From Caballeronia turbans (lineage in GTDB: Bacteria > Pseudomonadota > Gammaproteobacteria > Burkholderiales > Burkholderiaceae): a DNA stretch of 64,000 bases. The translations under genes and the position numbers were made by a program. The stretch's first letter is position 1, and each line of letters begins with the position of its first letter. The stretch is taken from NCBI GenBank assembly GCA_001544655.2, contig FCOD02000001.1, forward strand, positions 310,001 to 374,000. Reading direction: 5' to 3'. Below the pieces are notes generated by a model. The model ran no database searches. It was not told the origin of the DNA and saw only the letters and a list, made by a program, of their open reading frames with translations. Of the stretch, positions 7,831 through 23,366 are shown piece after piece.

Positions 7831-7892
7831 TCTCGATTTACACAACGTCGATTGAAAACAATTCCGTTTGTCAACGCACACAAAATCCGCAG

Positions 7893-7913: not shown

Positions 7914-8024
7914 TATTGCGTTTCATGAAGTCACGTCATGAATCGCGCGGAAGCGCGTTCATACGCGCTTTGAACTCCTTCGTGACACGCCGTATCACGC
8001 GCGCAACACTCTGCATTAAAGACG

Positions 8025-8216: not shown

Positions 8217-8403
8217 GTTTTATCTCCTTTATATAAAGCGCGGAAAAAACGTTTCGATGCTTCCAGAATGCGCTTCTCGAAAGCGGCTGGCCCTAGTGGA
8301 TTACGTTGATGGACTTCGCAGGCCAGCATGACGATGATGATAAGAATGCCCGTTCGAAACGCATACCTGCCCGTTTTCAATCCGCTTGTCTATTTCCGTA
8401 GCT

Positions 8404-8433
8404 AAAAAAATGCCCGGTGCAAATGACCGGGCA
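8404..8433 (-). terminator. Intrinsic terminator of the amaB-amaA-like operon
   Basis: TGCCCGGT at 8411-8418 pairs with ACCGGGCA at 8426-8433 (7-nt loop). On the minus strand it is followed by seven T's (8410-8404). It sits 48 bp beyond the stop of the FAD oxidoreductase gene. Confidence 0.85.
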
Positions 8434-8480
8434 CTTAATTGATCGGTTATGGAAAACGGCTATTTCCAGTCCTCTATCAG

Positions 8481-9653
8481 TTAAACGACATTCTTTTCGA
8501 TGATCGGCCGCCCTTCGAGTACGCGCGTCCAGTCGAGCGGCGATAAATCGATCGTCTCGTAGCGTCCGCGCAAAATCAGCTCGCTCACGCCGCGTCCCGT
8601 CGCCGGGCCTTGCTGCAGGCCGTGTCCGCTGAATCCGTTCGCGAAAATGCAGTTCTCCAGATCCGGATGACTGCCGATGATCGCGTTCTGGTCGAGCACG
8701 TTGTATTCGTAATAGCCGGACCAGCAGCGTTCCACACGCAGCGCCTCGAACGCCGGCACGCGATGCGCGAGCGTCGGCCAGATTACGTCGTCGAAGAGCG
8801 CGTGATCGACTTCGTCGAGCGGCAGGTCGTCAGGATCGTTGTCCGCCGAGGGCGACGTGCCGCAGATATACGTGCGCCCTTCCGGACGGAAATAGACGCC
8901 GGTCGGATCGATCAGCAAAGGCGCGCGTTCGAGCTTCGCCGGCGACGACACGTTGAAAATGCTGCGCCGGCGTGCATACACCGGAATGTCGATGCCGAGC
9001 ATGGCCGCGATCCCGCGCGACCACGCGCCCGCCGCGTTCACGACGACATCGCACGCATAGGTTTCGCCGTTGGCCGCACGCACGGTCGTCGCGCGCCGTC
9101 CTTCACGCCCGATGCCGACGACTTCCGTCGTCACATAACGCGCGCCGAGCGATTGCGCCTTGCGCCGCAGCGCCTGCACGAGACCGTAGCCGTCGAACCA
9201 GCCTTCGCCGCTTTCGCCGAACGTGCCCGCGGCGAGGTCGTCCGTATTGAGCCAGGCAAAGCGCGCGCGCAGCTGCGCGGAATCCAGGAGGCTGATGTCC
9301 GCGCCCAGTTCGCGTTGCAGCGCGTGATTCTCGCGCAGCGTCGCTTCGCCCGGCGCCGTCGCGAGGAAGAGATAGCCGCCTTCGTGCAGATCGATGGACG
9401 GACGCTCGCCGTTCACTTCGAGCCGCTCGCCGATCGAGCGCAGGAACTCGATGCCGAAGAGCGACATGCGCACGGAGAGCGGCGTCGAGAACTGCTGCCG
9501 GATCGACGCCGCCGAGAGCGCCGACGACGAGCGCGCGTAAGTCGGATCACGTTCGATCACCGTGACCTGCACCGTCGGGTCCGATGCGCGCAGGAAATAC
9601 GCGACCGAGCTGCCGATCACACCGCCGCCTACGATGACAACGCTCGAACTCAC
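8481..9653 (-). CDS. FAD-dependent oxidoreductase, DAO family (AmaA-like candidate)
   Basis: A 390-residue D-amino-acid-oxidase-superfamily flavoprotein. The FAD-binding GGGVIGSS motif starts at residue 9 and the C-terminal FAD contact reads NGFSGHGLQQGPATGRGVSE. Such enzymes oxidise amines or imino acids (sarcosine, glycine, pipecolate). It begins with GTG 7 bp after the stop of an aldehyde dehydrogenase of the piperideine-6-carboxylate / aminoadipate-semialdehyde type. In pseudomonads that pair (amaA, amaB) oxidises L-pipecolate to 2-aminoadipate in lysine catabolism. The pairing makes this function likely, but it is an inference; other cyclic amine substrates are possible. Confidence 0.8.
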   Translation of the reverse strand: MSSSVVIVGGGVIGSSVAYFLRASDPTVQVTVIERDPTYARSSSALSAASIRQQFSTPLSVRMSLFGIEFLRSIGERLEVNGERPSIDLHEGGYLFLATAPGEATLRENHALQRELGADISLLDSAQLRARFAWLNTDDLAAGTFGESGEGWFDGYGLVQALRRKAQSLGARYVTTEVVGIGREGRRATTVRAANGETYACDVVVNAAGAWSRGIAAMLGIDIPVYARRRSIFNVSSPAKLERAPLLIDPTGVYFRPEGRTYICGTSPSADNDPDDLPLDEVDHALFDDVIWPTLAHRVPAFEALRVERCWSGYYEYNVLDQNAIIGSHPDLENCIFANGFSGHGLQQGPATGRGVSELILRGRYETIDLSPLDWTRVLEGRPIIEKNVV

Positions 9654-9660
9654 ATCGCCC

Positions 9661-11160
9661 TCAGCTCAGATTGAAGTCGATGCCCTGCGCGAGCGGCAAT
9701 TCCGACGAGTAGTTGATCGTGTTGGTCGCGCGGCGCATGTAGGCCTTCCACGCATCCGAGCCCGATTCGCGGCCGCCGCCGGTTTCCTTCTCGCCGCCGA
9801 ATGCGCCGCCGATCTCCGCGCCGCTCGGCCCGATGTTCACGTTGGCGATGCCGCAGTCGCTGCCCGATGCGCACAGGAAGCGCTCGGCTTCGCGCAGGTC
9901 CGTCGTGAACGCACACGACGACAGGCCGTGCGCGGCGGCGTTGTTCGCGGCGATGGCTTCATCGAAGTCGGCATAGCGCATCACGTAGAGGATCGGCGCG
10001 AAGGTTTCCTTCAGCACGACGTCGGTTTGCGAAGGCATTTCGACGAGCGCCGGGCGCACGTAGTAGCCGTTTTCGTGGCCCGTCACGGCGACGCGCTCGC
10101 CCCCGAACACCTTGCCGCCCTCGCCCTTCGCCTGCTCGAGCGCGTCCTGCATGCGCGCAAATGCCTGTACGTCGATGAGCGGTCCCATGAGCACGCCCTG
10201 CTCGAGCGGATTGCCGACGGGCACCTTCGCGTAGAGATCCTTCAGGCGCGCGACGGTGTCGTCGTAGATGCTTTCATGCACGAAGAGACGCCGCAGCGAC
10301 GTGCAGCGCTGCCCCGCCGTGCCGACCGCAGAGAACAGGATGCCGCGCAGCGCGAGATCGCGATTGGCGGTCTGCGAGACGATGCCCGCGTTGTTGCCGC
10401 CCAGTTCGAGAATCGAGCGGCCGAAGCGCTCCGCCACCGCGACGCCGACCTTGCGGCCCATTTCGGTGCTGCCCGTGGCGCTGACGATATCGGCGCGCTT
10501 GTCCGCGACGAGCGCCGCGCCGACATCGCGTCCGCCGATGATCACCGACGCAAGGCCCTCTGGCGCGGAGCCGAATTCTTCGATGGCGTCGCGCAGAATG
10601 CGATCGACGGCGAGCGCGGTGAGCGGCGTTTTCTCCGACGGCTTCCACACGACCGAATTGCCGCACACGAGCGCGAGCGCGGCGTTCCACGACCACACCG
10701 CGACCGGAAAGTTGAACGCCGAGATGATCGTGCACACGCCGAACGGGTGCCACGTCTCCGCCATGCGATGGCCGGGGCGCTCCGACGCGATCGTCAGCCC
10801 GTACAACTGGCGCGAGAGACCGACGGCGAAATCGCAGATGTCGATCATCTCCTGCACTTCGCCGAGGCCTTCCTGGAGAATCTTGCCCGCTTCGAGCGAC
10901 ACGAGGCGGCCGAGCGCCTCCTTTTTCTCGCGCAGGCGATTTCCGAGCAAACGCACGAGTTCGCCGCGTCGCGGTGCGGGCACATTGCGCCATGCGGCGA
11001 ACGCGGTGCGCGCGGCGCCGAGGGCGGCGTCCACGTCGGCGGTGGTGTTCTGCTTCACCCGGCCGATGACTCCGCCCGTGATCGGTGAAGTGACGGCGAT
11101 GTCGCCATCGGTCACGAGGCTCGCGATGCCGAGGTCGGAAAGAATCGATTGTGTGTTCAC
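9661..11160 (-). CDS. amaB: Aldehyde dehydrogenase, AmaB / L-aminoadipate-semialdehyde type
   Basis: A 499-residue NAD-dependent aldehyde dehydrogenase with catalytic Glu252 (LELGGNNAG) and Cys286 (GTAGQRCTS). The WHPFGVCTIISAFNFPVAVW stretch and LELGGNN are typical of the ALDH7 branch (aminoadipate semialdehyde / piperideine-6-carboxylate dehydrogenase). The frame extends upstream to 11271, but GTG at 11160 with AAGGACATCACC before it matches the family N-terminus. It heads an operon with the FAD oxidoreductase and faces an XRE-cupin regulator. The symbol rests on family resemblance and context. Confidence 0.85.
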   Translation of the reverse strand: MNTQSILSDLGIASLVTDGDIAVTSPITGGVIGRVKQNTTADVDAALGAARTAFAAWRNVPAPRRGELVRLLGNRLREKKEALGRLVSLEAGKILQEGLGEVQEMIDICDFAVGLSRQLYGLTIASERPGHRMAETWHPFGVCTIISAFNFPVAVWSWNAALALVCGNSVVWKPSEKTPLTALAVDRILRDAIEEFGSAPEGLASVIIGGRDVGAALVADKRADIVSATGSTEMGRKVGVAVAERFGRSILELGGNNAGIVSQTANRDLALRGILFSAVGTAGQRCTSLRRLFVHESIYDDTVARLKDLYAKVPVGNPLEQGVLMGPLIDVQAFARMQDALEQAKGEGGKVFGGERVAVTGHENGYYVRPALVEMPSQTDVVLKETFAPILYVMRYADFDEAIAANNAAAHGLSSCAFTTDLREAERFLCASGSDCGIANVNIGPSGAEIGGAFGGEKETGGGRESGSDAWKAYMRRATNTINYSSELPLAQGIDFNLS

Positions 11161-11198
11161 GGTGATGTCCTTTTGACGCGGGTCCGTTCTTCTGGCGG

Positions 11199-11218
11199 AA
11201 GTTTCTGATAAGAAACTT
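11199..11218. promoter_or_regulatory. 20-bp palindromic operator before amaB
   Basis: AAGTTTCT-GATA-AGAAACTT is a perfect dyad with 8-bp arms. It lies 38 bp before the amaB start and just downstream of the predicted promoter (transcription start near 11226), the classical position for a repressor. The divergent XRE-cupin protein is the obvious candidate ligand. Confidence 0.65.
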
Positions 11219-11232
11219 TCGTAAGTCCGGCA

Positions 11233-11261
11233 ACTATACGCGCTGCCGTCGCCGCTCACAA
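11233..11261 (-). promoter_or_regulatory. Sigma70-type promoter of the amaB operon
   Basis: On the minus strand TTGTGA (11261-11256), a 17-bp spacer and TATAGT (11238-11233) form a good promoter. A second dyad, GGACAA-N8-TTGTCC at 11266-11285, flanks the -35 on its upstream side and may be an additional regulator site. Confidence 0.6.
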
Positions 11262-12041: not shown

Positions 12042-13511
12042 CTAACGCAAAGTGAGACGCATCGGCATTTCGCTCGGGACCACGGTAAATGTGCAGACTT
12101 CCCGGATATCGGCGGGATTCGTGGCGAGTTGCGCGGTGAAGTTCGCCGTGAGCATGGACACGACGAGGCGCATCTCTACCGCCGCCAGATGCCGCCCCGG
12201 GCACACGCGCGGCCCCGCGCCGAATTGCAGGTAGGCGCGCGGTTCGTGCGCACCGCGCTCCGACGCCGCGTCTTCATGCCGATGATCATGCAGCCATCGG
12301 TCGGGGTCGTAGCGTTCGGGATCGGCGTAATTGTCCGGGTCCATCATCGCGGGCCGGTGAAGCATGAACATCTTCGTTCCGGCGGCGAGGCGCACGCCCT
12401 GAAGCCGCACTTCCTCGAGGGGCTCGAGCGACATATACGGCGCAACCGGATGCAGGCGGCTTGCTTCCGTGCACACCGCTTCGCACAGGTCGAGTTCGCG
12501 CATCGCGCCATAGCTCGGACACACGGCCGAGCCGCCGAGCACCTGCCGCGCCTGTGCGGCGACGCGCGCCTGCAACGCGTCGTCGGTGCCGAGAAAGAAG
12601 AGCGCCCACGCGATCGACGTCGCGGTCGTTTCCTCGCCCGCGACGAGCATCGTCAGCACGTTGGCGGCGACTTCGTCGTCGGTGATGCCGGAGCCGGGCG
12701 CATCGCGCAGGGTGAGCATCGCTTCGAGCAGATTGCGCGGCGCACGGGCTGTCTCTTCGAGCGGCGTCTCGCACGCTTCGACCGCCGCCTCCTCGCGCAT
12801 CCGGGCGCGTGCCCTCGACATCAACTCGCGGATATGACGATGCACGTCGATCATTGCTTCATCGAACTTGCGGTCGCGCGGAAACTTCACGTAGTGCCAG
12901 TAGGCGAAGGGGGCGTTCACGCGCGTCATCAGCATCGGCAATAGCAGCGCCAGTTGCTCCTGGATCAGCACTCGCTCGTTTTCCAGCGTATTCGGATCTT
13001 CGCCGAACGCGAGCGCGCTCGTCACATCGACGGTGAAGCGCTTAAGATCATCGGTCATGTCGACCACGCGCCCCGCCCGCGCCGCGGCTTCCCAGCGCCG
13101 CCGCAGCCGCTCGGTGATCGCGGCGAGCGTGGGGTAGAACGCCTTGATGTGGGGAATCGACAGCGCCTGCATCACGAGGCGGCGCTGCGGCTCCCAGGCC
13201 GCGCCCTCGATCGAGAAGAGCCCGTTGCAGCCGAACTCTTTCAGGATATTTTCGATGGGCGCATAGCGGCGGTAACGATGCGGCCGCTCGCGCATCACGG
13301 CGTGGGAAAGCTCGATGTCGTTCCACACGGTGACGGGCGTCGTGCCCAGGCGGAACACGTAGGGCGTGCCGAGTTCGGCGGCCCAGCGCTCCAGCGTCAG
13401 ATGGTGCGTGGCGGGCGGCAATTGATGCAGGTTGCCCAATAGCGGCAGGCCGCGCGGCGACGGCAAATCATCGATTTCGCGCAGGGATGTGCCGACGGAT
13501 GCTGCGTTCAT
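12042..13511 (-). CDS. Cytochrome P450
   Basis: A 489-residue haem monooxygenase. The I-helix oxygen-binding motif AGEETTATS is at 291-299, the K-helix ExxR is E349-R352 (EASR), and the haem-ligand loop FGAGPRVCPGR has Cys437. There is no fused reductase or ferredoxin domain and no ferredoxin or ferredoxin reductase gene nearby, so electrons must come from elsewhere. No membrane anchor is evident. It follows the IclR gene by 63 bp on the same strand, so it may belong to the same catabolic cluster, hydroxylating a hydrophobic or ring substrate. The length (longer than class I soluble forms) suggests a CYP4/CYP110-like group; substrate unknown. Confidence 0.9.
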   Translation of the reverse strand: MNAASVGTSLREIDDLPSPRGLPLLGNLHQLPPATHHLTLERWAAELGTPYVFRLGTTPVTVWNDIELSHAVMRERPHRYRRYAPIENILKEFGCNGLFSIEGAAWEPQRRLVMQALSIPHIKAFYPTLAAITERLRRRWEAAARAGRVVDMTDDLKRFTVDVTSALAFGEDPNTLENERVLIQEQLALLLPMLMTRVNAPFAYWHYVKFPRDRKFDEAMIDVHRHIRELMSRARARMREEAAVEACETPLEETARAPRNLLEAMLTLRDAPGSGITDDEVAANVLTMLVAGEETTATSIAWALFFLGTDDALQARVAAQARQVLGGSAVCPSYGAMRELDLCEAVCTEASRLHPVAPYMSLEPLEEVRLQGVRLAAGTKMFMLHRPAMMDPDNYADPERYDPDRWLHDHRHEDAASERGAHEPRAYLQFGAGPRVCPGRHLAAVEMRLVVSMLTANFTAQLATNPADIREVCTFTVVPSEMPMRLTLR

Positions 13512-13574
13512 GATCGGCCTCGCGAGGGCTTGATCTGTGCAGGATAGTGCAGGATCGGGACGTCCGGCGCGTCT

Positions 13575-14432
13575 TTAAACAGCCTTCGTTTTCTTCGCTT
13601 TTCCCGCCGCCTTCGCGACCGCCCCCGCCGCTTCCTCCGTCCTCACCACCGGCCGCTTGAAATATGGCGAGCTCAACGTCGCAGCGCCCATGTCCGATGC
13701 CGCTTCGAGCAGCGCGGGCGCAAGTTCCTTCAGACGCGCGTCGGGCAACCGGCTGGTCGGGCCGGCGAGACTCACGACGCCCACGACAACACCCGTCACC
13801 GGATGATGGATCGGCGCGGCCATCGACGTCATGCCGGCCTCGTAGGTCTCGCTCGCGATCCCATAGCCGCGTTTGCGCGCCGCCTGCAATTCAGCGAGAA
13901 ATTGCTGGATCGTCTTCGGCGCCTTCGGACCGCCCGAGCCCGGCTTGCCCAGGCCGCCCTGCTTCGACACGAGCTCGAGCGCTTCCTCGTCCGTGAGCGA
14001 CGACAGCCACGCCTGTCCGCTCGCCGTGCAATGCAAGGGCGGCTGGCTGCCCATGTCGGGGTCGTAGCGCAGGCCGGATTTCGCGCCCTGCGCCTTGCCG
14101 ACGAACGTGATGTGATCGTCTTCGACCACGCCCAGCCGTGCCAGCTCGCCCGATTGCGCCGCGAGCCGGTCGAGCACCGGTTGCGACACATCGAGCACGC
14201 CGCCCGTCGAGAGATAGATGAGCGCAAGCGATACGAGCTTCAGCGCGAGCATGTACTCGCCGTGATCCTCGTCCTGCCGGACATAGCCTTCGTCGATCAG
14301 CATCGCGAGCAGCCGGTGCGTGCCGCTGCGCGGAATGTTGAGCGTATCGGCGATGGCGGCGAGCTGCATCCGCCCGCCGTTTTTCGCCAGCAGCTCGATG
14401 ATGGACAACGCCCGCTCCAGATTTCCTGCCAT
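13575..14432 (-). CDS. IclR family transcriptional regulator
   Basis: A 285-residue regulator with a winged helix-turn-helix (about residues 3-65, AAIADTLNIPRSGTHRLLAML) and a GAF-like effector domain (about 80-250). Unusually, it carries a C-terminal tail rich in Ala and Lys (AAGAVAKAAGKAKKTKAV). Proteins of this family bind small aromatic or organic acids. A dyad of IclR-type half sites lies 43 bp upstream, and 15-bp IclR-type palindromes lie before the divergent pathway genes at 19563 and 22469. It is therefore the likely pathway regulator of the 12-23 kb cluster. Confidence 0.9.
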   Translation of the reverse strand: MAGNLERALSIIELLAKNGGRMQLAAIADTLNIPRSGTHRLLAMLIDEGYVRQDEDHGEYMLALKLVSLALIYLSTGGVLDVSQPVLDRLAAQSGELARLGVVEDDHITFVGKAQGAKSGLRYDPDMGSQPPLHCTASGQAWLSSLTDEEALELVSKQGGLGKPGSGGPKAPKTIQQFLAELQAARKRGYGIASETYEAGMTSMAAPIHHPVTGVVVGVVSLAGPTSRLPDARLKELAPALLEAASDMGAATLSSPYFKRPVVRTEEAAGAVAKAAGKAKKTKAV

Positions 14433-14475
14433 CTTTCAGTCTCTCGAAGTTCCGATGCGGCATGAGTAGAACACG

Positions 14476-14490
14476 ATTCCACGTCGGAAT
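14476..14490. promoter_or_regulatory. Possible IclR autoregulatory site
   Basis: ATTCC-ACGTC-GGAAT is a perfect inverted repeat 43 bp before the IclR start codon. The half sites match those of the palindromes at 19563 and 22469 but face outward with a 5-bp spacer, so binding by the same protein is only possible, not certain. Confidence 0.35.
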
Positions 14491-14504
14491 TCAACCGGCG
14501 CGGG

Positions 14505-15329
14505 TCAATGTTCGGCGTAGGCCGCCTCCAGCACCGCGAGCGTCGCCTCGCGCAGGCGCCTCGCGCGAGTGAGCGCGTTTGCGGTCTTCGCCCATTCGTT
14601 CATCGGCACTTCGATCGACAGCGGCAAGCCATCCGGCAATGCGCGCAGGATGCCCGCGAGATCGATTCCGCCCTCGCCCGGAATCATGCGCTCGGCACGC
14701 GCCTGATATAGCAGCGTGTCGAGGTCGGCCGGACGCTCGGCGGGGGCATCGCAGAACTGCACGTAGCCGAACCATTCGCGCGGCAGTTCGCGCAGCGCGT
14801 GCGTCGACGATCCCGCGCGGTCGAAATGAATCGGATCGACGATCAGGCCCGTGTTCGCGCGCCCGGCCGCCTTCACGATGCGCGCACCTTGCACGATGTC
14901 CTTCGCGTCGGTCCACGGCATCGGTTCGAGCGACGGCGACAAGCCGTACGGCTTCGCGAGATCGCAGAGCGACGCGAGCCGCTCGGCGGTGCGCGCCTCG
15001 TCGGGATCGTTGCCCGCGACGAGCACGTAGCGCGCTCCCAGTGTCGCCGCGGTTTCGAGCATCGGCTCGTAATCGGCGACGTTGGTGTCGGGCTTGAGGC
15101 GCAGGATTTCAGCATCGAGCACGCCGATTCCGGTGTCCTTCAAAGCCGCGAGCGTTTCGCGCCTCAAGGGCGTCGCGCCGACGATCTCGTGGCGCACCTC
15201 GGTATCGGTCGCGGGCACGAGCCGCAGGCCGACGAAATCGTAGCCCGCACGCGCCGCGCACTCGACCATCTGCGGCGGCGTCAATTCGAGGACCGTCAGC
15301 GCGGACAGGGACAGCTTGCGTCGTGACAT
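14505..15329 (-). CDS. TIM-barrel sugar phosphate isomerase/epimerase-type enzyme
   Basis: A 274-residue AP-endonuclease-2 / xylose-isomerase-like TIM barrel. Likely metal ligands are visible in order: Glu of SLEPMPW, Asp and His of VDPIHFDR, a QFCDAP loop and Glu of SIEVPMNEW. The family includes sugar isomerases, inosose dehydratases and 3-dehydroshikimate dehydratases, and the length fits the last group. It starts 12 bp after the NIPSNAP stop with GGAG in front, in the operon with two ring-oxidising flavoproteins. A dehydratase or isomerase step on a polyhydroxy ring acid is plausible but unproven. Confidence 0.8.
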   Translation of the reverse strand: MSRRKLSLSALTVLELTPPQMVECAARAGYDFVGLRLVPATDTEVRHEIVGATPLRRETLAALKDTGIGVLDAEILRLKPDTNVADYEPMLETAATLGARYVLVAGNDPDEARTAERLASLCDLAKPYGLSPSLEPMPWTDAKDIVQGARIVKAAGRANTGLIVDPIHFDRAGSSTHALRELPREWFGYVQFCDAPAERPADLDTLLYQARAERMIPGEGGIDLAGILRALPDGLPLSIEVPMNEWAKTANALTRARRLREATLAVLEAAYAEH

Positions 15330-15341
15330 CGATGTCTCCGG

Positions 15342-15953
15342 TTAGCGCAACGGCGAGAACGGCGCGGGCATGTAGATGGTCGACTCCATCGTCGTCAGAT
15401 GGGCCGGCCCGCCCTTCGGCGGCCAGATGCCGTCCTTCACGGCTTCGGCGCGAATGCGCGAACGCTCGTCGACACTCTTGTACGGCCAGATGTTGAGAAA
15501 GCGCGGCACGGCGCCGTCGAGCGCGTACATCGCGCCGATGAGCGGCGAGCGCGTGGTGCGCTCCGGCACGGCGCTCTTCCAGGCATCGATCGTATGTTGC
15601 AGGCTCGCGAGCTTCGTGCCGTACACGCGCATCTCGTAGATGCCGCCGTGCACGGCCGGCTCGATCGGCGGCAGAAACGGAAAGAGCGCGTAGCTGTTCA
15701 CCTCGACATCGGTGATGAATTCGCCGCAGCCGAACGGATTGCCTTCGAGCAGCAGGCGCTGTCGCGACCCGATCAACGCCGCTTCCGACTCGAAGCCGCG
15801 CAGGACCATGACCTTGCCCAGCGCCCCGATGTCCGAATACCAGCAGCCGAGCAGCGTCGAGCCGGGCGCGTTGCCGCTGTTTTTGATGTTCTCGAAGACC
15901 TGCGCGTTCGCGCCGATCTTAACCGTCAACGTGACTGTGTCGTACAGAGTCAT
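15342..15953 (-). CDS. NIPSNAP family protein
   Basis: A 203-residue protein with two ferredoxin-like alpha/beta repeats of the NIPSNAP/Dabb type. Each half carries the IYEMRVYGTK / QVFENIKNSG style of strand-helix and the second reads FLNIWPYKSVDERSRIR. NIPSNAP proteins often accompany aromatic or alicyclic catabolic enzymes; their biochemical role is poorly known (small-molecule binding or isomerase/oxygenase-like). The start overlaps the stop of the upstream flavoprotein by ATGA, so it is translationally coupled and most likely part of the pathway. Confidence 0.8.
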   Translation of the reverse strand: MTLYDTVTLTVKIGANAQVFENIKNSGNAPGSTLLGCWYSDIGALGKVMVLRGFESEAALIGSRQRLLLEGNPFGCGEFITDVEVNSYALFPFLPPIEPAVHGGIYEMRVYGTKLASLQHTIDAWKSAVPERTTRSPLIGAMYALDGAVPRFLNIWPYKSVDERSRIRAEAVKDGIWPPKGGPAHLTTMESTIYMPAPFSPLR

Positions 15954-17686
15954 TGCAGCGTCCTTGCCTGTTTGAAGTTGGTGAGATTCGGGATGTCTTC
16001 GTGTGCCGGTTCGGCGAGTTCGAGGCCCGCAAGATAGCCGAAGGTCATCGCCGGCCCGAGCGTGATGCCGCCGGCGGGATAGTGCCCGCCCATCATGCTC
16101 GCGGCGTCGTTGCCGACGGCGTAGAGGCCGCGAATCGGCGCGTGCTTTTCGTCGAGGACGCGCGAGCGCGCATCCGTCGACAGCCCCGCGAAAGTGCCGA
16201 GGCTCCCCGGCACGATCTTCACCGCGTGGAACGGGCCCTCAACGATCGGCGCGAGACACGGATTCGGCGTGTGCGATGCATCGCCCTGCACGCGGTTATA
16301 TGGCGTCGAGCCTTTGTGGAACTGCGGATCGAAGCCGTCTTTCGCGTAGCCGTTGTACGTGGCGACGGTATCGGCGAGACCGCGCGCATCGATGCCGCAT
16401 TGCCGCGCCAGCGCATCGAGCGTCGGCGCGGACCTCAGATAGCCCGAGCGTTCGTACGGGCCGAGCGGAAACGGAAAAGGCTTCGCGAATCCGAGGCCGT
16501 ATCTGCGCTGAAACCGGTGATCGCAGACGAGCCACGCGCACGCTTCCTCGCCCGGCGGCGTCGTGCCGAAGAGCGCGCAGACGAAGTCGTAGTACGACGA
16601 CGCCTCGTTGGTGAAGCGCCTGCCCGCGCGCGTCACCGCGATCACGCCCGGCTTCGCGCGCTCGATCAGATGCGCAAACGCGGCCGTCTCGCCCTTACTC
16701 TTGCGCACGAGCGACACGGGCGCCCACGCGGCGGGCGCTTCGAGCGACGCATCGAAATGGGCGCCGGCCGCTTCGCCGATACGAATGCCATCGCCGGTAT
16801 TGCTCTTCGGCGCCGCAGACCAGTGCGGCGTGTACGGAAAAGTTTCTGCCTGACGCTTCGCGTCGTGCGGATAACCGCCGCAAGCAAGCACGACGCCGCG
16901 CCGCGCGCGCACTTCGTGCATCACGCCTTCGATCTCGACGCGCGCACCCGTCACGCGATGCTCCTCACGCATGAGCGACACCGCGCGCGCGCCGGTGCGC
17001 AGATCGACACCGCGATCCGCCGCCGACTTCAACAAACGCGCGACGAGCGCATTGCCGTTCACGAGATGCATCGAACGCCGGTAACGCAGCATGTGCCACG
17101 CGAATCCAGCGAAGCGCTTCGTCACGTGCCATGCCGACTTCGCGCTGCGCGTCGCGTTCAGGAAGTGCGCGAGATCCTGGCCCGATGCGATCGCCATGCC
17201 CTTGATCGTCATTTCCGCGAGCGGCGGACGCAGCTTGTCGATGAGCGGACCGAGCTCGCGGCCGTCGAACGGCATCGCGCAGACCGAGCGCCCGCCCGTG
17301 GCCGCGCCTCGCGTCGTATGAAAGTCGGGAATGCGGTTGCCGTCGATGAAGCGCATCGACGTATTGCGTTCGAAGAATTCGACCATGCGCGGCCCGTGCT
17401 CGATGAGCGCGTCGGCCTTCGCGGCGTCGAAATGCGCGCCCAGCTCGCTCTTCAGATACGTGCGCGGCACGCTGTCATCTTCGACGATGCCCGCGCGCGT
17501 CGCGAGCGGATTGCGCGGAATCCACATCCAGCCGCCCGACCACGCGGTCGTGCCGCCGAACACGTCTTCCTTCTCGCAGACGAGCACGGACAGACCCTGC
17601 GTCGCCGCGGTGACGGCCGTCGACAAGCCGCCCGCGCCGGAACCCAGCACGAGGACGTCGCATTCGAGAATCGGTTCGAGCTTCAT
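15950..17686 (-). CDS. FAD-dependent dehydrogenase, KstD/fumarate-reductase-like (second of pair)
   Basis: A 578-residue flavoprotein with the dinucleotide motif GSGAGG at residues 15-20 and the C-terminal FAD loop GHYPAGGITLGPAMTFGYLAG. The fold is that of 3-ketosteroid delta-1-dehydrogenase, fumarate reductase flavoprotein and related desaturases that take a hydride next to a ketone or carboxylate. The open frame extends to 18028, but ATG 17686 overlaps the stop of its upstream paralogue (ATGA) and gives the family start. No signal peptide, so it is cytoplasmic. Two tandem paralogues suggest two successive ring desaturations. Confidence 0.85.
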   Translation of the reverse strand: MKLEPILECDVLVLGSGAGGLSTAVTAATQGLSVLVCEKEDVFGGTTAWSGGWMWIPRNPLATRAGIVEDDSVPRTYLKSELGAHFDAAKADALIEHGPRMVEFFERNTSMRFIDGNRIPDFHTTRGAATGGRSVCAMPFDGRELGPLIDKLRPPLAEMTIKGMAIASGQDLAHFLNATRSAKSAWHVTKRFAGFAWHMLRYRRSMHLVNGNALVARLLKSAADRGVDLRTGARAVSLMREEHRVTGARVEIEGVMHEVRARRGVVLACGGYPHDAKRQAETFPYTPHWSAAPKSNTGDGIRIGEAAGAHFDASLEAPAAWAPVSLVRKSKGETAAFAHLIERAKPGVIAVTRAGRRFTNEASSYYDFVCALFGTTPPGEEACAWLVCDHRFQRRYGLGFAKPFPFPLGPYERSGYLRSAPTLDALARQCGIDARGLADTVATYNGYAKDGFDPQFHKGSTPYNRVQGDASHTPNPCLAPIVEGPFHAVKIVPGSLGTFAGLSTDARSRVLDEKHAPIRGLYAVGNDAASMMGGHYPAGGITLGPAMTFGYLAGLELAEPAHEDIPNLTNFKQARTLQ

Positions 17687-19482
17687 TTGGCGTGGACGGA
17701 CGATTGGAGTTCGACGGGCAGCGTAAGCGCTTCGTCGCGGGCGTTCGTCAACGCGGCGCTGGCCGGCTGCTGCGCGCGCACGGTCGCATGCCGTGCCGCC
17801 AGAAAGCCGAACGTGAGCCCCGGACCGAGCGTGATGCCGGGGCCGGGATAGACGCCGCCCATCACCGATTGCATGTCGTTGCCGCACGCGTAGAGGCCGC
17901 CGATCGGTCGATCGTCGCGATCGAGCACGCGCGCGTGCGTGTCGGTGACGAGGCCGGTCGCCGCGCCGATATCGCCGGGATAGAGCCGCACCGCATAGAA
18001 CGGCGCCTCGCTGATCGGGCCGAGGCACTTGTTCGGGCCGGTCCAGTTGGCGTCGCCATTGGCGTTCTGGTAATCGGTCGTGCCGCGCTGAAAATCGGCA
18101 TCCACGCCGCTCTGCGCATAGCGATTGATGCGCGCGACGCTATCGGCGAGGCCAGCGCGGTCGATGTCGAGCTTCATTGCCAGTTCGTCGAGCGTCCTGC
18201 CTTCGACGAGATAGCCATCGGCGAGAAACGGCGCGAGCCCCTTGCCGCCCGGACGCACCATGCCGAGCCCGTACTTGCGCAGTCCTTCCGTGTCCGTCAC
18301 GAGATACGCGGGCACCGAAGGCGTGGTCTCGTTCGCTTTTTGCATCGCCATGCCGAACAGGTGATACGACGTGTTCTCGTTCAGGAAGCGCCTGCCCGTT
18401 TTGTCGACGGTGATCATGCCCGGCTTGCCGCGATCCATCATGAAGTGCGGGAACACGGCGGTCGTGCCGTCGGCGCGCTTGCGCACGGAAACCGGCGCCC
18501 AGAAGGCGTGCGACAGCGCGCCCTTGCCGAAGCGCGCGCCCGCGGCGAGCGCGAGATCCTGCGCGCTGCCGGTGTGGCCGGGCGCGCCGGGGCACCACGC
18601 CGGATCGGCGCCCGGCAGCATCTCGCCGCGACGCGCCGGATGCCGGTTGAAGCCGCCGCTCGCGAGAATCACGCCGCCTTTCACATTGACGCGACGCCGG
18701 TCGTTGACGCGGCTCAGCGTTACGGCTTCGATGCCGTTCGGCCCGCTGTGCAACGCATCGACCTTCGTGCTCGTCAGCACCGTGACGCCACGCTCGAGCA
18801 ACGAATACAACAATCTTCCGATCAGCGCGTTGCCCATCACGAGCCGCGTGCCGCGCGGCGCGCTCAGGCGATCGCGCGCGTGACGCGCGAGCAGCTTCGC
18901 CGCATGTCGGAACGACGCGAACGACTTCGTCATGTTGAGCAGATGCCCGACGTCGTCGCGGTCGACCATCATGCCGCCGAGCACGGTGAATTCGGGAATC
19001 GGCGGACGGATCAGCGAAAACGCGCGGCCGAGCTTGCGGCCGTCGAAGGGCAGCGGTTCGAGCGCCCGCCCGCGCAGCGTCGAGCCTTCGAGCTCGGACA
19101 AATAATCGGGATGGAACGGGCGCGCGCGATATTTCACAGCGGAGTTCGCTTCGATATGCGCGACCGCTTTCGGGCCGGCATCGAGAAACGCACGGCGCAT
19201 CGCGACGCTGCTGCGCCCGCCGACCGCGCGATCCAGAAAGCCTTCGGCGTTCACGGATGTATCGTCACGATTGACGCTCGCGGCATGCATCGACGCGGGA
19301 ATCCACGTCGTTCCGGCCGAGAAGGCCGTCGTACCGCCGACGTATTCCGTACTCTCCACAAGGAGCACGCGCGCACCGTCGATGGCCGCGACGAGGGCCG
19401 CCGACATGCCCGCGCCGCCTGCGCCGATTACGACGACATCGAATGTTTCGTCATGTCCCAGATTGTCCAGTGTCTCCACCAT
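17683..19482 (-). CDS. FAD-dependent dehydrogenase, KstD/fumarate-reductase-like (first of pair)
   Basis: A 599-residue paralogue of the next gene. FAD motif GAGGAG is at residues 20-25 and the C-terminal loop reads GVYPGPGITLGPGLTFGFLAA; the VGGTTAFSAGTTWIPAS block is typical of KstD-like ring desaturases. The frame is open to 19536; ATG 19482, preceded by GAGGGAGCGG, is preferred. It opens the operon (dehydrogenase, dehydrogenase, NIPSNAP, TIM barrel) and is divergent from the epimerase gene, with an IclR-type palindrome between them. Substrate unknown; a cyclic ketone or ring carboxylic acid is the inference. Confidence 0.85.
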   Translation of the reverse strand: MVETLDNLGHDETFDVVVIGAGGAGMSAALVAAIDGARVLLVESTEYVGGTTAFSAGTTWIPASMHAASVNRDDTSVNAEGFLDRAVGGRSSVAMRRAFLDAGPKAVAHIEANSAVKYRARPFHPDYLSELEGSTLRGRALEPLPFDGRKLGRAFSLIRPPIPEFTVLGGMMVDRDDVGHLLNMTKSFASFRHAAKLLARHARDRLSAPRGTRLVMGNALIGRLLYSLLERGVTVLTSTKVDALHSGPNGIEAVTLSRVNDRRRVNVKGGVILASGGFNRHPARRGEMLPGADPAWCPGAPGHTGSAQDLALAAGARFGKGALSHAFWAPVSVRKRADGTTAVFPHFMMDRGKPGMITVDKTGRRFLNENTSYHLFGMAMQKANETTPSVPAYLVTDTEGLRKYGLGMVRPGGKGLAPFLADGYLVEGRTLDELAMKLDIDRAGLADSVARINRYAQSGVDADFQRGTTDYQNANGDANWTGPNKCLGPISEAPFYAVRLYPGDIGAATGLVTDTHARVLDRDDRPIGGLYACGNDMQSVMGGVYPGPGITLGPGLTFGFLAARHATVRAQQPASAALTNARDEALTLPVELQSSVHAK

Positions 19483-19562
19483 TCGTCCGCTCCCTCGCGC
19501 CAGGAATCGCCGTCCTTCCGACGATTCGAAACGCATGTTTTCAGTAGAACTCGCTTTGATAT

Positions 19563-19577
19563 TGGAATACTATTCCA
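19563..19577. promoter_or_regulatory. IclR-type operator in the divergent control region
   Basis: TGGAATA-C-TATTCCA is a perfect 15-bp palindrome. It resembles the E. coli IclR consensus (TGGAAATNATTTCCA) at 13 of the 14 defined positions if A/T changes are counted as conservative. It lies 81 bp before the first flavoprotein and 50 bp before the epimerase, so one bound dimer could control both directions. Confidence 0.7.
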
Positions 19578-19626
19578 GAAAATGCATTGAAGCCAAGCTC
19601 TTTTTTTGAGGCGAACGGAGGACGGT

Positions 19627-20526
19627 ATGCGAGTGCTGGTGACAGGCGCAAGCGGCTTTCTGGCGGCGTGGGTGACGCGGCGGCTGCTCGCCCGCGATAT
19701 GGACGTGCGCGTGGACGTGCGCGCCTTCGACGTGCGCGAGGACGCGCGGCTCCTGCGCGCGCTCGCGCCCGAACGCGCCGATGAAGTGCAATGGCGGGTC
19801 GGCGATATCGGGAACGCGCGCGATGTCGCGACGGCGCTCGAGGGCTGCGACGCCGTCGTCCATCTCGCAGGCGTGCTCACGCCTGCCTGCGCCGGCGATC
19901 CGGTGCGCGGCGCGCGCATCAATCTGATCGGTACGCTCAACGTGTTCGACGCGGCTATCGCGTGCGGCGTGCGCTCGGTGCTGTATGCGAGCAGCGCGGG
20001 TGTCTTCGGCCCCGACGACGGCGCGACGCCCTTTCCCATGACACATTACGGCGCGTTCAAGCTCGCATGCGAAGGCTCGGCGCGCGCGTACTGGCACGAT
20101 CATGGCATTGCGAGCATCGGCTTTCGGCCGCTCGTCGTGTACGGCGCGGGGCGCGAGACGGGATCGAGCGCCGGTCCGAGCCTCGCCTGCCGCGCGGCCG
20201 CGCGCGGCGAGCCGTACACGATTCCCTTCACCGGCGCGACGGGCCTCGTCTACGCCGATGACGTCGCCGCCGCCTACGAGCGCGCGCTCACGCATCCGTT
20301 CGACGGGGCGCACGCGTTCACGCTGGCGGGCGACATCACGCCGATGCAGAGCGTGATCGCGACGCTGAAGCAGATCGCGCCGGACGCGCGCATCGACGCG
20401 GCGGGCGCGCCCTTGCCGATCGCGACATCCTTTCCCGACGATCCCGTGCTCGATCGAATGCTTCCAGGCCTTGCAAAAACGCCGCTCATCGACGGATTGC
20501 GTCAAACCGTGGCGTTCTACCGGTAG
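19627..20526 (+). CDS. NAD-dependent epimerase/dehydratase (extended SDR)
   Basis: A 299-residue extended short-chain dehydrogenase with the nucleotide motif TGASGFLA at the N-terminus, a catalytic Ser block (YASSAGVFG) and YGAFK as the YxxxK pair. These enzymes act on nucleotide sugars, but many catabolic relatives oxidise hydroxy acids or lactones. ATG 19627 follows GGAGG; an in-frame ATG at 19606 lacks a site. It shares its control region and IclR-type palindrome with the flavoprotein operon, so it is probably a pathway alcohol dehydrogenase or isomerase. Confidence 0.85.
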   Translation: MRVLVTGASGFLAAWVTRRLLARDMDVRVDVRAFDVREDARLLRALAPERADEVQWRVGDIGNARDVATALEGCDAVVHLAGVLTPACAGDPVRGARINLIGTLNVFDAAIACGVRSVLYASSAGVFGPDDGATPFPMTHYGAFKLACEGSARAYWHDHGIASIGFRPLVVYGAGRETGSSAGPSLACRAAARGEPYTIPFTGATGLVYADDVAAAYERALTHPFDGAHAFTLAGDITPMQSVIATLKQIAPDARIDAAGAPLPIATSFPDDPVLDRMLPGLAKTPLIDGLRQTVAFYR

Positions 20527-20593
20527 GCAAAGCGGCTCTTGGCACCGCATCGTCCTTGGGGCACGATTCGCTTCTTCACGACAGGTGCCACGC

Positions 20594-22312
20594 ATGCAAG
20601 ACACGACCCGACCACCCGCGACGACTGCGAAGCTGCTCAAAGGCATCCTGCCGATCAACCGCGCCGCCGCGTTACGCGACGCGCTCGCCGGCATCTCGCT
20701 CGCGTCGATGGACATCCCGCAGGTGCTCGGCTATGCGCGCATCGCCGGCATGCCCGCGGTGACGGGCCTCTACACTGCGTTCCTGCCGCTCCTCGCGTTC
20801 GCGCTCTTCGGCGCGTCGCGGCATCTCGTGGTCGCCGCCGACTCCGCGACGGCAACGATCTTCGCGAGCCGGCTTTCGTCGATGGCCGCGATGGGCAGCC
20901 CGGAATACGTCGCGCTCGCGGGCATGGTCGCACTGCAGACCGCCGCGCTCTTGCTGCTCGCGCGCCTGTTCAAGCTCGGCTTTCTCGCCGATTTTTTGTC
21001 GCGCACCGTGCTGACGGGCTTTCTCGCGGGCGTGGGGGTGCAGGTTTCGATCGCCATGCTCGGCGACCTCTTCGGCATGACGGTGCCGTATCCGTCCTCG
21101 CGCAGCCTGGCGCAACTCGTCTACGTGATCGGGCATGTCACGCACGCGCATGGGCCGACGCTCGTGCTCGCGCTCGTCGTGATCGTCGCGATTCTGGGCT
21201 GCAAACGCTTCGCGCCGCGCCTGCCGATGCCGCTCGTCGCGGTGATCGGCAGCATCGCCGCGAGCAAGGCTTTCGACTTCGCCGCGCGCGGGATTTCGGT
21301 GCTCGGTCCCATCGAAGGCGGTTTGCCCGCGATCCGCATGCCCGATGTCACCTGGCAGCAATCTCTCGATCTCGTGCCCGTCGCGGCGTCATGCTTCGTG
21401 ATGATCATCGCGCAGAGCGCGGCCGCGGCGCGCGTGTTCGCGCAGCAGTATCACGAGGACGTCGACACCAACAGCGACATCCTCGGCCTTGCCGCGGCGA
21501 ACGCGGCGGCGGCGTTGAGCGGGACGTTCGTCGTGAACGGCAGTCCGACGCAGACGGCAATGGCCGACCGCGCAGGCACCCGGAGTCAGCTCGGACAACT
21601 CGTCTTCGCGGCGGTCGTCGCTGTCGTTCTGCTATTTCTGAGCGGCTATCTGCGCTATCTGCCGCACAGCGTGCTGGCGGGCATCGTGTTCACGATTGCG
21701 ATCGGCCTCATCAACGTGCAGAGCCTGAAGGACATCCGCGCCGAAAGCCCCGGTGAATTCGCGCTCGCGCTCGTCACGGCCGGCGCGGTGGTGCTGGCGG
21801 GCGTCGAGCACGGCATCCTGCTAGCGGTCGCGCTCTCGCTCATGCGGCACGTGCGCCACAGCTATCATCCGCACACGATGGTGCTCACGCCCGTCGCGCC
21901 CGGAAAACCCTGGCAGTTCATGCCGACGAAGCCCGGCGCGATGACTGCGCCGCATCTGATCGTCTACCGCTTCGGCGCGGATCTGTTTTACGCGAACGAT
22001 CATTTCTTCGCGTCGGAAGTGACGAAGCTCGTCGATACGGCATCCGACGGATTGCGTCATCTCGTCGTCGACGCCGGCGCGATCACCGATCTCGACTATT
22101 CAGCGGCCCGCACGATCGGCGAGCTGATCGAAACGCTGCGCGCACGCGGCGTCGCGGTGATCTTCGGGCGCGTGAACCGCTTCCTGCGCAACGACATGGA
22201 CCGGCACGGTCTGACGCGGGTGCTCGGCGCATCGAACGTGTTCGACACGCTGCACGAGGCGCTCGCGGCGGCTGGCGTAAATTCGGGCGGGCATGAGCCG
22301 AACGTGCTATGA
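20594..22312 (+). CDS. SulP family anion transporter with STAS domain
   Basis: A 572-residue inner-membrane transporter: about 10-14 hydrophobic segments to residue ~440 including the SulP block GLYTAFLPLLAFALFGASRH, then a cytoplasmic STAS domain (about 460-560) with LVVDAGAITDLDYSA. SulP proteins carry sulfate, bicarbonate or C4-dicarboxylates. It starts 67 bp after the epimerase and likely shares its mRNA; the frame is open upstream from 20471, but ATG 20594 begins at the usual N-terminus. The operon position suggests import of the pathway's acid substrate, unusual for SulP, though a sulfate transporter placed here by chance cannot be excluded. Confidence 0.85.
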   Translation: MQDTTRPPATTAKLLKGILPINRAAALRDALAGISLASMDIPQVLGYARIAGMPAVTGLYTAFLPLLAFALFGASRHLVVAADSATATIFASRLSSMAAMGSPEYVALAGMVALQTAALLLLARLFKLGFLADFLSRTVLTGFLAGVGVQVSIAMLGDLFGMTVPYPSSRSLAQLVYVIGHVTHAHGPTLVLALVVIVAILGCKRFAPRLPMPLVAVIGSIAASKAFDFAARGISVLGPIEGGLPAIRMPDVTWQQSLDLVPVAASCFVMIIAQSAAAARVFAQQYHEDVDTNSDILGLAAANAAAALSGTFVVNGSPTQTAMADRAGTRSQLGQLVFAAVVAVVLLFLSGYLRYLPHSVLAGIVFTIAIGLINVQSLKDIRAESPGEFALALVTAGAVVLAGVEHGILLAVALSLMRHVRHSYHPHTMVLTPVAPGKPWQFMPTKPGAMTAPHLIVYRFGADLFYANDHFFASEVTKLVDTASDGLRHLVVDAGAITDLDYSAARTIGELIETLRARGVAVIFGRVNRFLRNDMDRHGLTRVLGASNVFDTLHEALAAAGVNSGGHEPNVL

Positions 22313-22468
22313 GACGCGGCTGAACGAGCGGCGTCGTCGCGTATCTGGCTAGCGCTCACGTACCGCTTCTGCTGCTGCGAAGCGCTTTTTCGCAATGCTC
22401 CGCCCTGTCCAGTCCGGTGGTGGCGCTGTTCTTCGACCGTTAGTTGCCTTGAGAACTCGATGAACTTG

Positions 22469-22483
22469 TTGAATGCTATTCCA
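22469..22483. promoter_or_regulatory. Second IclR-type operator, before the AroE-like gene
   Basis: TTGAATGCTATTCCA matches the perfect palindrome at 19563 in 13 of 15 positions, including the whole right half. It lies 56 bp before the AroE-like start in an AT-rich promoter region. Confidence 0.6.
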
Positions 22484-22538
22484 TTTTCAATTAGGATTCA
22501 GGAACAGACTGATCAACGATTCAGGAGGCAATCGAAGC

Positions 22539-23366
22539 ATGGCGCAGGACACTTCTTTTTCCGCATCGCTCGATGCGGGCTTGAGCGGCGCGACGCGCGT
22601 CTATTTCATCGTCGGCGATCCCATCGCGCAGGTGCGCTCGCCTTCCGGCGTGACAGCGGCGCTGCGCGCGGCAGAGCGCGACGCGATCGTGATTCCGGCA
22701 CATGTCGCGCCGGACGATCTCGACGCGTTCTTCGCGGGCATCGCGCGCTTGCAGAACTGCGACGGCGTCATCATCACCGTGCCGCACAAGTTCAGCGCGA
22801 CGGCATATTGCAAGTCGCTGACCGACGAAGGCGCATTTCTCGGCGCGGTCAACATGCTCAAGCGCGACGCCGACGGCACCTGGCACGGCGGCGCATCGGA
22901 CGGCATCGGCATGGTCGCCGCGTTGAGAGACGCGGGTTGCGAGCCGAAGGAAAAGCGCGCGCTGCTGATCGGCGCGGGCGGTGCGGGCTCGGCGATCGGC
23001 CATGCGCTCGTGGATGCAGGCGTGGCGTCGCTCGCGATCCGCGATTTCGATGCCGGGCGCACCGGCGCCCTCGCCTCGCGTCTCGCCGCACTGGGCCGGG
23101 GCGCAGTGAGCGTCGCCGACGATGCGCCCGCCGAAAGCTACGACCTCATCGTGAACGCGTCGCCGGCGGGCATGCGTCCCGGCGATCCGCTGCCGATCGA
23201 CGTCTCGCGCCTGCCTCCGACGGCCTTCGTCGGCGACGTGGTGACGAAGCCGCCGCTCACGCCTTTCATCGAAGCCGCCCGCGCGCGCGGCTGCACGACC
23301 GTCACCGGCACGCAAATGTTCGGCCGCGTATGCGACGCGATCGTCGCGTATCTGTTGAAGGACTGA
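22539..23366 (+). CDS. Shikimate dehydrogenase-like protein (AroE family, non-canonical)
   Basis: A 275-residue NAD(P) dehydrogenase of the AroE fold. Catalytic Lys84 (ITVPHK) and Asp121 (GASDGIG) are present, as is the nucleotide loop GAGGAG at 146-151. But the substrate-binding S-x-S of AroE (usually SKSP) reads VRSP at 32-35, and the NTD motif is replaced by ASD. The usual C-terminal Gln loop reads GTQMFGRV. It is therefore unlikely to be the biosynthetic AroE and more likely oxidises a related ring alcohol. ATG 22539 follows AGGAGG at 22523-22528. An IclR-type palindrome upstream ties it to the flavoprotein cluster. Confidence 0.85.
   Translation: MAQDTSFSASLDAGLSGATRVYFIVGDPIAQVRSPSGVTAALRAAERDAIVIPAHVAPDDLDAFFAGIARLQNCDGVIITVPHKFSATAYCKSLTDEGAFLGAVNMLKRDADGTWHGGASDGIGMVAALRDAGCEPKEKRALLIGAGGAGSAIGHALVDAGVASLAIRDFDAGRTGALASRLAALGRGAVSVADDAPAESYDLIVNASPAGMRPGDPLPIDVSRLPPTAFVGDVVTKPPLTPFIEAARARGCTTVTGTQMFGRVCDAIVAYLLKD

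Follow-up and report, generated by a model that had tools for sequence, protein, structure and literature searches.

An IclR-associated gene cluster of Caballeronia turbans with paired KstD-type flavoproteins: a candidate route from hydroxycyclohexanecarboxylic acids to aromatic acids

What might a bacterium do with two KstD-type flavoproteins encoded beside a shikimate dehydrogenase homologue? The question is raised by nine genes, with families matched by Pfam and NCBIfam, that fill positions 12042-23366 of a 64,000-nucleotide stretch of the 7.35-Mb genome of Caballeronia turbans (contig FCOD02000001.1, positions 310,001 to 374,000; hereafter the window). They encode an AroE-like dehydrogenase, the two flavoproteins (flavA and flavB), a NIPSNAP protein, a TIM-barrel enzyme, an IclR-family regulator, a short-chain dehydrogenase/reductase (SDR), a SulP-family transporter and a cytochrome P450 (Table 1). 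A first-pass annotation, made from the DNA letters, had listed the same nine genes and read them as one pathway; all are present, and their strands and families agree by Pfam. On balance, we favour the view that the cluster would encode an IclR-controlled peripheral pathway converting a saturated or partly saturated hydroxycyclohexanecarboxylic acid to protocatechuate or hydroxybenzoate. The earlier interpretation stands as to an IclR-controlled route from a ring acid to an aromatic acid with paired desaturases, and is weak where it enlisted the SulP and P450 proteins. The observations that bear on this are the gene identities, a conserved gene set, a shared palindrome, conserved catalytic residues and the placement of relatives among quinate/shikimate and pca genes.

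Conservation of the gene set and its palindrome

Relative loci were anchored on the TIM barrel, and the best 80 of 252 confirmed matches were divided into 57 closer loci (TIM-barrel identity of 69% or more) and 23 distant ones (54-61%). Truncated and decayed loci were retained and scored as misses, the relatives are non-independent samples, and genes were called with a codon-usage open reading frame picker that misses some genes visible to tblastn, such as the AroE gene of locus L073. Among the 57 closer loci, an IclR gene was present in 53, a flavoprotein in 52, NIPSNAP in 50 and an AroE-family gene in 46 (in L083 and L110 this gene is of the other, 37% type). The core of the cluster is the AroE-like dehydrogenase, two KstD-type flavoproteins, NIPSNAP, the TIM barrel and IclR. 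Since the SulP, SDR and P450 genes are found in 15, 32 and 16 of these loci, respectively, they are changeable parts, the SDR usually lying at the operator described below. Other neighbours include Gfo/Idh (23 loci), PcaK-like major facilitator superfamily (MFS; 20) and ATP-binding cassette (ABC; 16) genes.

Within the genus, 36 other genomes were compared and 20 of them carry an orthologue of NIPSNAP; its identity is at least 85% in 19, and G026 has it in pieces of 62-84% identity. The AroE-like, flavA, flavB, NIPSNAP and TIM genes occur together in 18 of these 20 loci, although one of them, L052, is broken into pieces. Of the remaining two, L041 has a fragmented flavB, and neither flavA nor an AroE-like gene was found there; in L048 a Gfo/Idh/MocA gene and a 40% identical flavoprotein replace the AroE-like gene/flavA set. 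Three further genus regions with low-identity NIPSNAP matches contained none of the other cluster genes. The first-pass annotation had named as fatal to its reading a finding that these genes never stand together in relatives; the opposite was observed. The arrangement goes beyond chance: it recurs in the genus and in other genera, and its promoters carry a common palindrome.

The proposal that SulP imports the substrate is weakened by its presence in just 15 of the 57 loci and by the MFS, ABC, tripartite ATP-independent periplasmic (TRAP) or Tct transporters that stand in its place in relatives (ABC, TctABC and DctPM assigned by Pfam). It remains a candidate importer. Membership of the P450 in the pathway is likewise weak: all of its 16 loci fall among L055-L072, with a decayed copy also in L091, and in many relatives some 0.4-0.8 kb separates it from iclR. 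It is probably accessory rather than core. The identities of the TetR and Gfo/Idh genes of relatives were confirmed by profile matches, whereas the names MFS2/c30 and EamA-type c31 in the locus maps are ones that we presume.

Some loci have visibly eroded. The cluster is reduced to fragments in the plant symbionts Candidatus Paraburkholderia kirkii and calva (L041/L064 and L052/L091), and in Candidatus Burkholderia verschuerenii (L046/L072) flavA is apparently split while two operator-like sites remain. A distinct variant in Caballeronia terrestris and C. humi (L048, L097/L098) has Gfo/Idh/MocA in place of the AroE-like gene, shows a clade-C flavoprotein as its sole flavoprotein on the fetched stretch, and retains NIPSNAP, TIM, IclR, SDR and a perfect operator.

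The palindrome TGGAATANTATTCCA occurs at three sites in the window, each upstream of cluster genes. Shuffling of the window gave an expectation of 0.33 sites per window, and three sites were reached in 2 of 100 shuffles. Across the whole genome, the palindrome with at most two mismatches is found at three places, of which two are in this cluster, while the backward control pattern is found at one. The weak, three-mismatch copy has counterparts in L032 and L033, from two other genomes. When up to two mismatches are allowed, there are 102 sites in 52 of the 57 closer loci; 120 arm-shuffled palindromes gave a mean of 0.6 sites and a maximum of 10 in the same loci. These counts measure conservation rather than independent events, because the relatives share ancestry. 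Of the 104 sites in the full set of 80 loci, 98 lie outside called genes. Gene starts within 400 nt past a site, where one site may serve for two genes, belong to a flavoprotein in 62 cases, an SDR in 32, an AroE-like gene in 27, a Gfo/Idh/MocA gene in 15, an ABC transporter in 12, IclR and SulP in 6 each and TIM in 4. As the sites precede swapped-in gene types, the operator accompanies genes that vary between clusters. The copy before the AroE-like gene is kept in many relatives, and in L116 an exact copy separates aroQ from iclR-TIM. Furthermore, 7 of the 12 distant iclR genes, six from Pseudomonas and one from Rhizobacter, are preceded by TGGAA-N5-TTCCA with at most one mismatch, where chance predicts 0.02 per promoter.

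From this distribution we infer that the cluster's IclR protein binds TGGAATANTATTCCA, and the nine genes look like one regulon. The suggestion that IclR-type control extends to the separate AroE-like gene is borne out to the extent that a common palindrome is evidence of it.

Core enzymes and their counterparts in Pseudomonas

FlavA and FlavB are 38% identical to each other and belong to different subfamilies (PRK12843 and PRK06134) and different clades. Among solved structures the two match KstDs best, with 321.3 bits for FlavB and 295.1 for FlavA to 7p18. They resemble KstD in fold family and in catalytic residues, for which we adopt the numbering and roles that we take to apply to KstD1. 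Equivalents of Tyr318, Tyr487 and Gly491 are found in 105, 104 and 105 of 105 flavoproteins, respectively (two of 107 sequences were left out for length). By pairwise alignment, FlavA additionally retains Tyr119, which is Phe in FlavB. Unlike KstD proper, however, both fall short of the curated cut-offs: PRK12844 gives 461.9 bits for FlavB and 429.7 for FlavA against 789, and PRK07843 gives 436 and 366.5 against 788. The same holds for ChcC1 (342.8 and 288.6 bits for FlavB and FlavA against 1000) and ChcC2 (504.1 and 410.1 against 900). We regard both proteins as candidate desaturases acting on ring ketones.

At least two flavoproteins lie on the fetched stretch in 35 of the 57 closer loci, and exactly one in 17. 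An A-like, clade-C partner was found in all nine single-flavoprotein genomes searched, together with two known positives; the search left out L087, L093, L094, L096, L097, L098, L106 and L108. In eight of the nine, its coordinates would fit a place 0.7-2.6 kb past the fetched stretch; those in L086 fit no place just past it. The two desaturase-type flavoproteins anticipated earlier are found in most full clusters, with their KstD catalytic residues kept. Away from its cluster, the genome of Paraburkholderia unamae (L102) holds a further flavoprotein (G339:C11:114807-116498), 52% identical to the clade-C type.

The TIM barrel was modelled with a predicted local distance difference test (pLDDT) score of 96.3. 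Its nearest folds are Lmo2234 (2g0w, entered as a putative sugar isomerase), IolI (1i60), whose substrate is 2-keto-myo-inositol, and QuiC1, which we take 5hmq to represent; Lmo2234 and IolI lead its matches in both fold and sequence. Residues E135, D165, Q191, E240 and R214 are invariant in 23 homologues and aligned with 5hmq. The four metal ligands of the AP_endonuc_2 family (E, D, Q/H, E) are kept, and E135, D165, Q191 and E240 would, as in other members of the family, bind the metal. In contrast to QuiC1, the protein lacks the half resembling 4-hydroxyphenylpyruvate dioxygenase (HPPD) and scores 39.5 bits with the QuiC model NF042435 (cut-off 1200), and its distant relatives stand beside a real quiC. 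We propose that it may act as a metal-dependent dehydratase or isomerase. The NIPSNAP model (pLDDT 89.1) has alpha+beta-barrel folds as neighbours.

Elsewhere, a TIM-barrel paralogue (33% identical; G000:C22:157419-160239, or L144:9420-12240) lies between IclR-like and intradiol-dioxygenase-like genes. The latter scores 163 bits to chlorocatechol dioxygenase, which is below the cut-off, and is followed by an iron-type alcohol dehydrogenase-like gene. This group looks like a hydroxyquinol or resorcinol-type operon, and the TIM family may serve as an aromatising dehydratase there too.

The AroE-like protein was expected to be a shikimate dehydrogenase homologue, which it is; NCBIfam cut-offs place it outside the canonical AroE and quinate/shikimate dehydrogenases (aroE 134.2 bits against 200.2, PRK12549 118.6 against 235, PRK14027 93.6 against 515). 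K84 and D121, corresponding to the catalytic Lys and Asp of AroE, are invariant in 12 homologues. Its best PDB match is 4k28 at 153.3 bits (the next is 88.7), which we take to be RifI2 of Pseudomonas putida, and a Pseudomonas relative in L121 matches 4k28 at 375.9 bits. The window protein is just 36% identical to this L121 orthologue, and the two have a V[RK]SP motif in common. Judged by its nearest solved member and by the operon context described next, the AroE-like protein is predicted to be of the RifI2 type. In work by Peek and colleagues from 2013, RifI2 was reportedly weak on shikimate and almost inactive on quinate, with a preference for NAD+. To our knowledge, no pathway has been assigned to it.

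A search for RifI2 in 199 genomes of the genus of L121 (E 1e-50) gave matches in 26: the L121 genome itself, 22 at 58-79% identity and three at 40-41%. The 25 others were fetched, the L157 and L163 stretches ending early at contig ends. The order RifI2-flavoprotein-NIPSNAP-flavoprotein is found in 16 of the 22 loci, and at least one flavoprotein lies beside RifI2 in 20 (in pieces in L163 and L167). In Pseudomonas, RifI2 orthologues stand first in an operon of this kind. No flavoprotein stands beside any of the three more remote matches. On the fetched stretches a TIM gene is present in 6 of the 22 loci, and quiC with aroQ in 2. In L164, the RifI2 operon lies between aroQ and a quinate/shikimate dehydrogenase (QSDH) gene on one side and tetR-quiC on the other.

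A divergent regulator gene, IclR2, accompanies this operon. The copy scanned, that of L121, exceeds the cut-off for the PcaR/PcaU/PobR family (TIGR02431; 298.8 against 284.75 bits), whereas the window's IclR protein is below it (131.4 bits) and goes with TGGAA-N5-TTCCA. The sequence TGCGATNATCGCA precedes RifI2 exactly in 18 of the 22 loci and with one mismatch in 1; it is absent from 3, and from the three remote loci. TGCGATTATCGCA or its complement is exact in 18 of the 22. The published PcaR site reads GTTCGATAATCGCAC (PMC12455658), and the Pseudomonas palindrome differs from the core of that site at 1 of 13 positions. The regulators and palindromes suggest that like enzymes answer to a beta-ketoadipate-type regulator in Pseudomonas and, in the Burkholderiales, to another IclR protein.

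Of the 23 distant TIM loci, 12 contain quiC and 11 contain aroQ; intradiol dioxygenase pairs occur in 7, pcaB in 4 and pcaC in 3. Flavoprotein genes are found in 13 of these loci, IclR genes in 12 and Gfo/Idh genes in 10, and 11 have AroE-family genes, by alignment mostly of the quinate/shikimate dehydrogenase type. NCBIfam models run on representatives identified QuiC (1309.4 bits, cut-off 1200), AroQ, PcaG, PcaB, PcaC, PcaH and the PRK12549 shikimate dehydrogenase. In L112, the order NIPSNAP-TIM-aroQ-quiC continues to two intradiol dioxygenase subunits. The genome of C. turbans itself encodes, outside the cluster, a full-length quiC-like gene with QSDH and TetR genes (890 bits, under the 1200 cut-off), pcaH above its cut-off and, on the same contig as the cluster, a pobA-like gene (515.7 bits, below 538.7). 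The distant loci with quiC, aroQ, pcaGH, pcaB and pcaC, the PcaR/PobR-family regulator of the Pseudomonas operon and the quiC-like and pca genes of C. turbans together support the earlier idea that the cluster acts on a shikimate-type ring acid and that its aromatic product leaves for a general route, which would be that of protocatechuate.

A proposed route and competing explanations

The substrate, order of reactions, product and direction of regulation that we infer would be as follows. A hydroxylated cyclohexanecarboxylic acid of the dihydroshikimate or dihydroxycyclohexanecarboxylate type, compounds that occur in nature, would be taken up. The RifI2-type dehydrogenase would oxidise a ring hydroxyl to a ketone, or the SDR (a candidate alcohol dehydrogenase or epimerase) would do so, or in relatives the Gfo/Idh/MocA enzyme. 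The TIM barrel would then remove water beta to the ketone or isomerise the hydroxy-ketone, after which one KstD-type flavoprotein would desaturate the ring next to the ketone. The ring would be finished by desaturation by the other flavoprotein or by dehydration, and would then tautomerise to a phenolic acid. For example, 3-oxo-4,5-dihydroxycyclohexanecarboxylate would yield protocatechuate directly on loss of the 5-hydroxyl and desaturation of C1-C2. The product would feed into the beta-ketoadipate route, whose genes lie elsewhere in the genome. As long as no inducer is present, IclR would occupy the promoters via TGGAATANTATTCCA.

Several observations weigh against this proposal. The lone flavoprotein is B-like in L093, L096 and L108 and C-type in L097/L098, and on the stretches fetched for many distant loci, TIM is accompanied by a single flavoprotein and NIPSNAP is missing; since single-flavoprotein loci exist, two desaturases may not always be needed. 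In L168 and L170, 2 of the 22 Pseudomonas RifI2 loci, there is no flavoprotein beside RifI2. The role of NIPSNAP is left unexplained by the pathway. The TIM barrel is equally close to IolI, Lmo2234 and QuiC1 and, given this and its 39.5 bits against a QuiC cut-off of 1200, dehydratase and isomerase are not separated. The palindrome is absent upstream of 5 of the 12 distant IclR1 genes, and no operator with up to two mismatches was found near the genome's own quiC or pca genes. Finally, the 57 closer loci contain quiC once (L083, which is without the rest of the cluster), aroQ not at all, an intradiol pair once (L100) and pcaB once (L099). Because these genes are rare near the closer loci, the aromatic product is deduced by homology, via the distant relatives.

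Cyclohexanecarboxylate aromatisation offers a related explanation. In the aromatisation route of Sinomonas (PMC5906575), two KstD-type desaturases, named ChcC1 and ChcC2 in NCBIfam, act in turn to take oxo-cyclohexanecarboxylate to hydroxybenzoate. A proteobacterial equivalent would run from C4-hydroxylation by a P450, through dehydrogenation to 4-oxocyclohexanecarboxylate, to two desaturations giving 4-hydroxybenzoate. ChcC2 and ChcC1 are indeed among the best functionally named models for the flavoproteins (504 and 343 bits for FlavB), a P450 adjoins, a pobA-like gene lies on the same contig and the L121 regulator is of the PcaR/PcaU/PobR family. Both flavoproteins nevertheless miss the equivalog cut-offs, the P450 is confined to 16 of 57 loci, and the Chc route requires neither a TIM-barrel dehydratase nor a shikimate dehydrogenase homologue. 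The cluster adds a RifI2-type dehydrogenase, TIM barrel, NIPSNAP and IclR, and its distant relatives stand, with quiC and aroQ, in loci of the quinate/shikimate kind. We consider this explanation improbable. In the reading that we favour, the cluster is similar in principle to the ChcC1/ChcC2 route but, with those cut-offs missed, departs from it as a variant and does not belong to it. (Sinomonas was formerly 'Corynebacterium cyclohexanicum'.) An accessory role in quinate/shikimate use is also doubtful. The AroE-like protein would then produce 3-dehydro compounds, the TIM barrel would be a second 3-dehydroshikimate dehydratase and the flavoproteins would serve a side compound or stereoisomer, consistent with the metal ligands and fold that the TIM barrel has in common with QuiC1 and with the quiC, aroQ and QSDH genes beside relatives. 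Yet the genome already holds a full-length quiC-like gene with QSDH, TIM and quiC stand side by side in relatives and so are not redundant by position, ordinary quinate or shikimate calls for no desaturase, and RifI2 is reportedly a poor enzyme on shikimate with almost no activity on quinate.

Degradation of a neutral cyclitol or polyol ring such as inositol, with the Gfo/Idh/MocA and TIM proteins as analogues of IolG and IolE/IolI, would account for the IolI match of the TIM barrel and for the 154 bits of the Gfo/Idh/MocA neighbour against IolG (cut-off 355). We think it very unlikely, since a shikimate dehydrogenase homologue and pca/quiC neighbours indicate a carboxylic acid, as do the carboxylate-type transporters of relatives: PcaK-like (496 bits, below the cut-off of 770), TctABC and DctPM. 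Least credible is a steroid- or xenobiotic-type desaturation set unrelated to shikimate-type acids. Solved KstDs are the best flavoprotein matches, but the KstD equivalogs are missed by a wide margin, and in relatives both the regulators and those neighbours that could be named belong to the pca/quinate kind, although no search was aimed at steroid genes.

If the aromatisation pathway that we favour is correct, it would add to the Chc route a second case in which KstD-type desaturases work as a pair to aromatise an alicyclic acid. It provides a testable pathway for a gene set of Caballeronia, Paraburkholderia and Burkholderia, with a related form in Pseudomonas, whose members match no more than broad family models ('FAD-dependent oxidoreductase', 'NIPSNAP' and 'shikimate dehydrogenase' among them). 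No description of the cluster appeared among the literature matches listed, which comprised titles and the starts of abstracts, with most subscription journals outside the coverage. As the operon of RifI2, an orphan enzyme of solved structure, has two putative desaturases and a beta-ketoadipate-type regulator, its substrate can be sought among saturated shikimate-like acids rather than in shikimate. More tentatively, these loci might represent a widespread proteobacterial route in which a dehydrogenase, a QuiC-like TIM barrel and KstD-type desaturases convert saturated, dihydroshikimate-like hydroxycyclohexanecarboxylic acids directly to protocatechuate, a route that bypasses 3-dehydroshikimate and gives RifI2 its native role. 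Two modules under separate regulation in Pseudomonas, TIM/flavB-like genes under TGGAA-N5-TTCCA and RifI2/flavA-like genes under TGCGATTATCGCA, would then have been fused under one IclR operator in the Burkholderiales.

Gene coordinates and neighbouring genes

Table 1. Genes and palindromic sites of the cluster in window coordinates.
Feature	Position	Strand	Match or location
Cytochrome P450	12042..13511	-	PF00067, 238.9 bits
IclR-family regulator (IclR1)	13575..14432	-	Pfam IclR_C and HTH_IclR
Weak palindrome copy, 3 mismatches	14467..14481		between TIM gene and iclR
TIM-barrel enzyme	14505..15329	-	Pfam AP_endonuc_2
NIPSNAP protein, two domains	15342..15953	-	PF07978, twice
flavB, KstD-type flavoprotein	15950..17686	-	FAD_binding_2; PRK06134, 847.8 bits (cut-off 747)
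flavA, KstD-type flavoprotein	17683..19482	-	FAD_binding_2; PRK12843, 923.7 bits (cut-off 758)
Putative operator TGGAATACTATTCCA, perfect 15-base palindrome	19563..19577		divergent flavA/SDR promoter
SDR, epimerase/dehydratase type	19627..20526	+	PF01370 (Epimerase), 116.6 bits
SulP-family anion transporter with STAS domain	20594..22312	+	PF00916, 238.2 bits; PF01740, 53.3 bits
Second putative operator copy TTGAATGCTATTCCA, 2 mismatches	22469..22483		upstream of AroE-like gene
Shikimate dehydrogenase homologue (AroE-like), predicted RifI2 type	22539..23366	+	Pfam Shikimate_dh_N; best PDB match 4k28

The coupled operon first proposed for the leftward genes agrees with the ATGA overlaps at flavA/flavB and flavB/NIPSNAP and with the 12-nt gap between NIPSNAP and TIM. 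The start of flavA was picked by its distance to the operator in relatives; an alternative in-frame start lies upstream at 19536. The SulP protein passes the Pfam gathering scores for Sulfate_transp (238.2 against 23.2) and STAS (53.3 against 22.6), and its TIGR00815 score of 288.7 bits is below the cut-off of 380.45.

Beyond the cluster, the window holds a second IclR-family regulator at 31208-32011 (+). A leftward group at 4140-11259 contains an aldehyde dehydrogenase, assigned by a match, adjoining an XRE-cupin regulator, together with genes named by eye as a CaiB-type CoA-transferase-like protein, a LysR regulator, a thioesterase-like protein and an FAD oxidase. Both L072, where the P450 is present, and L073, where it is absent, retain parts of this group downstream of the cluster.

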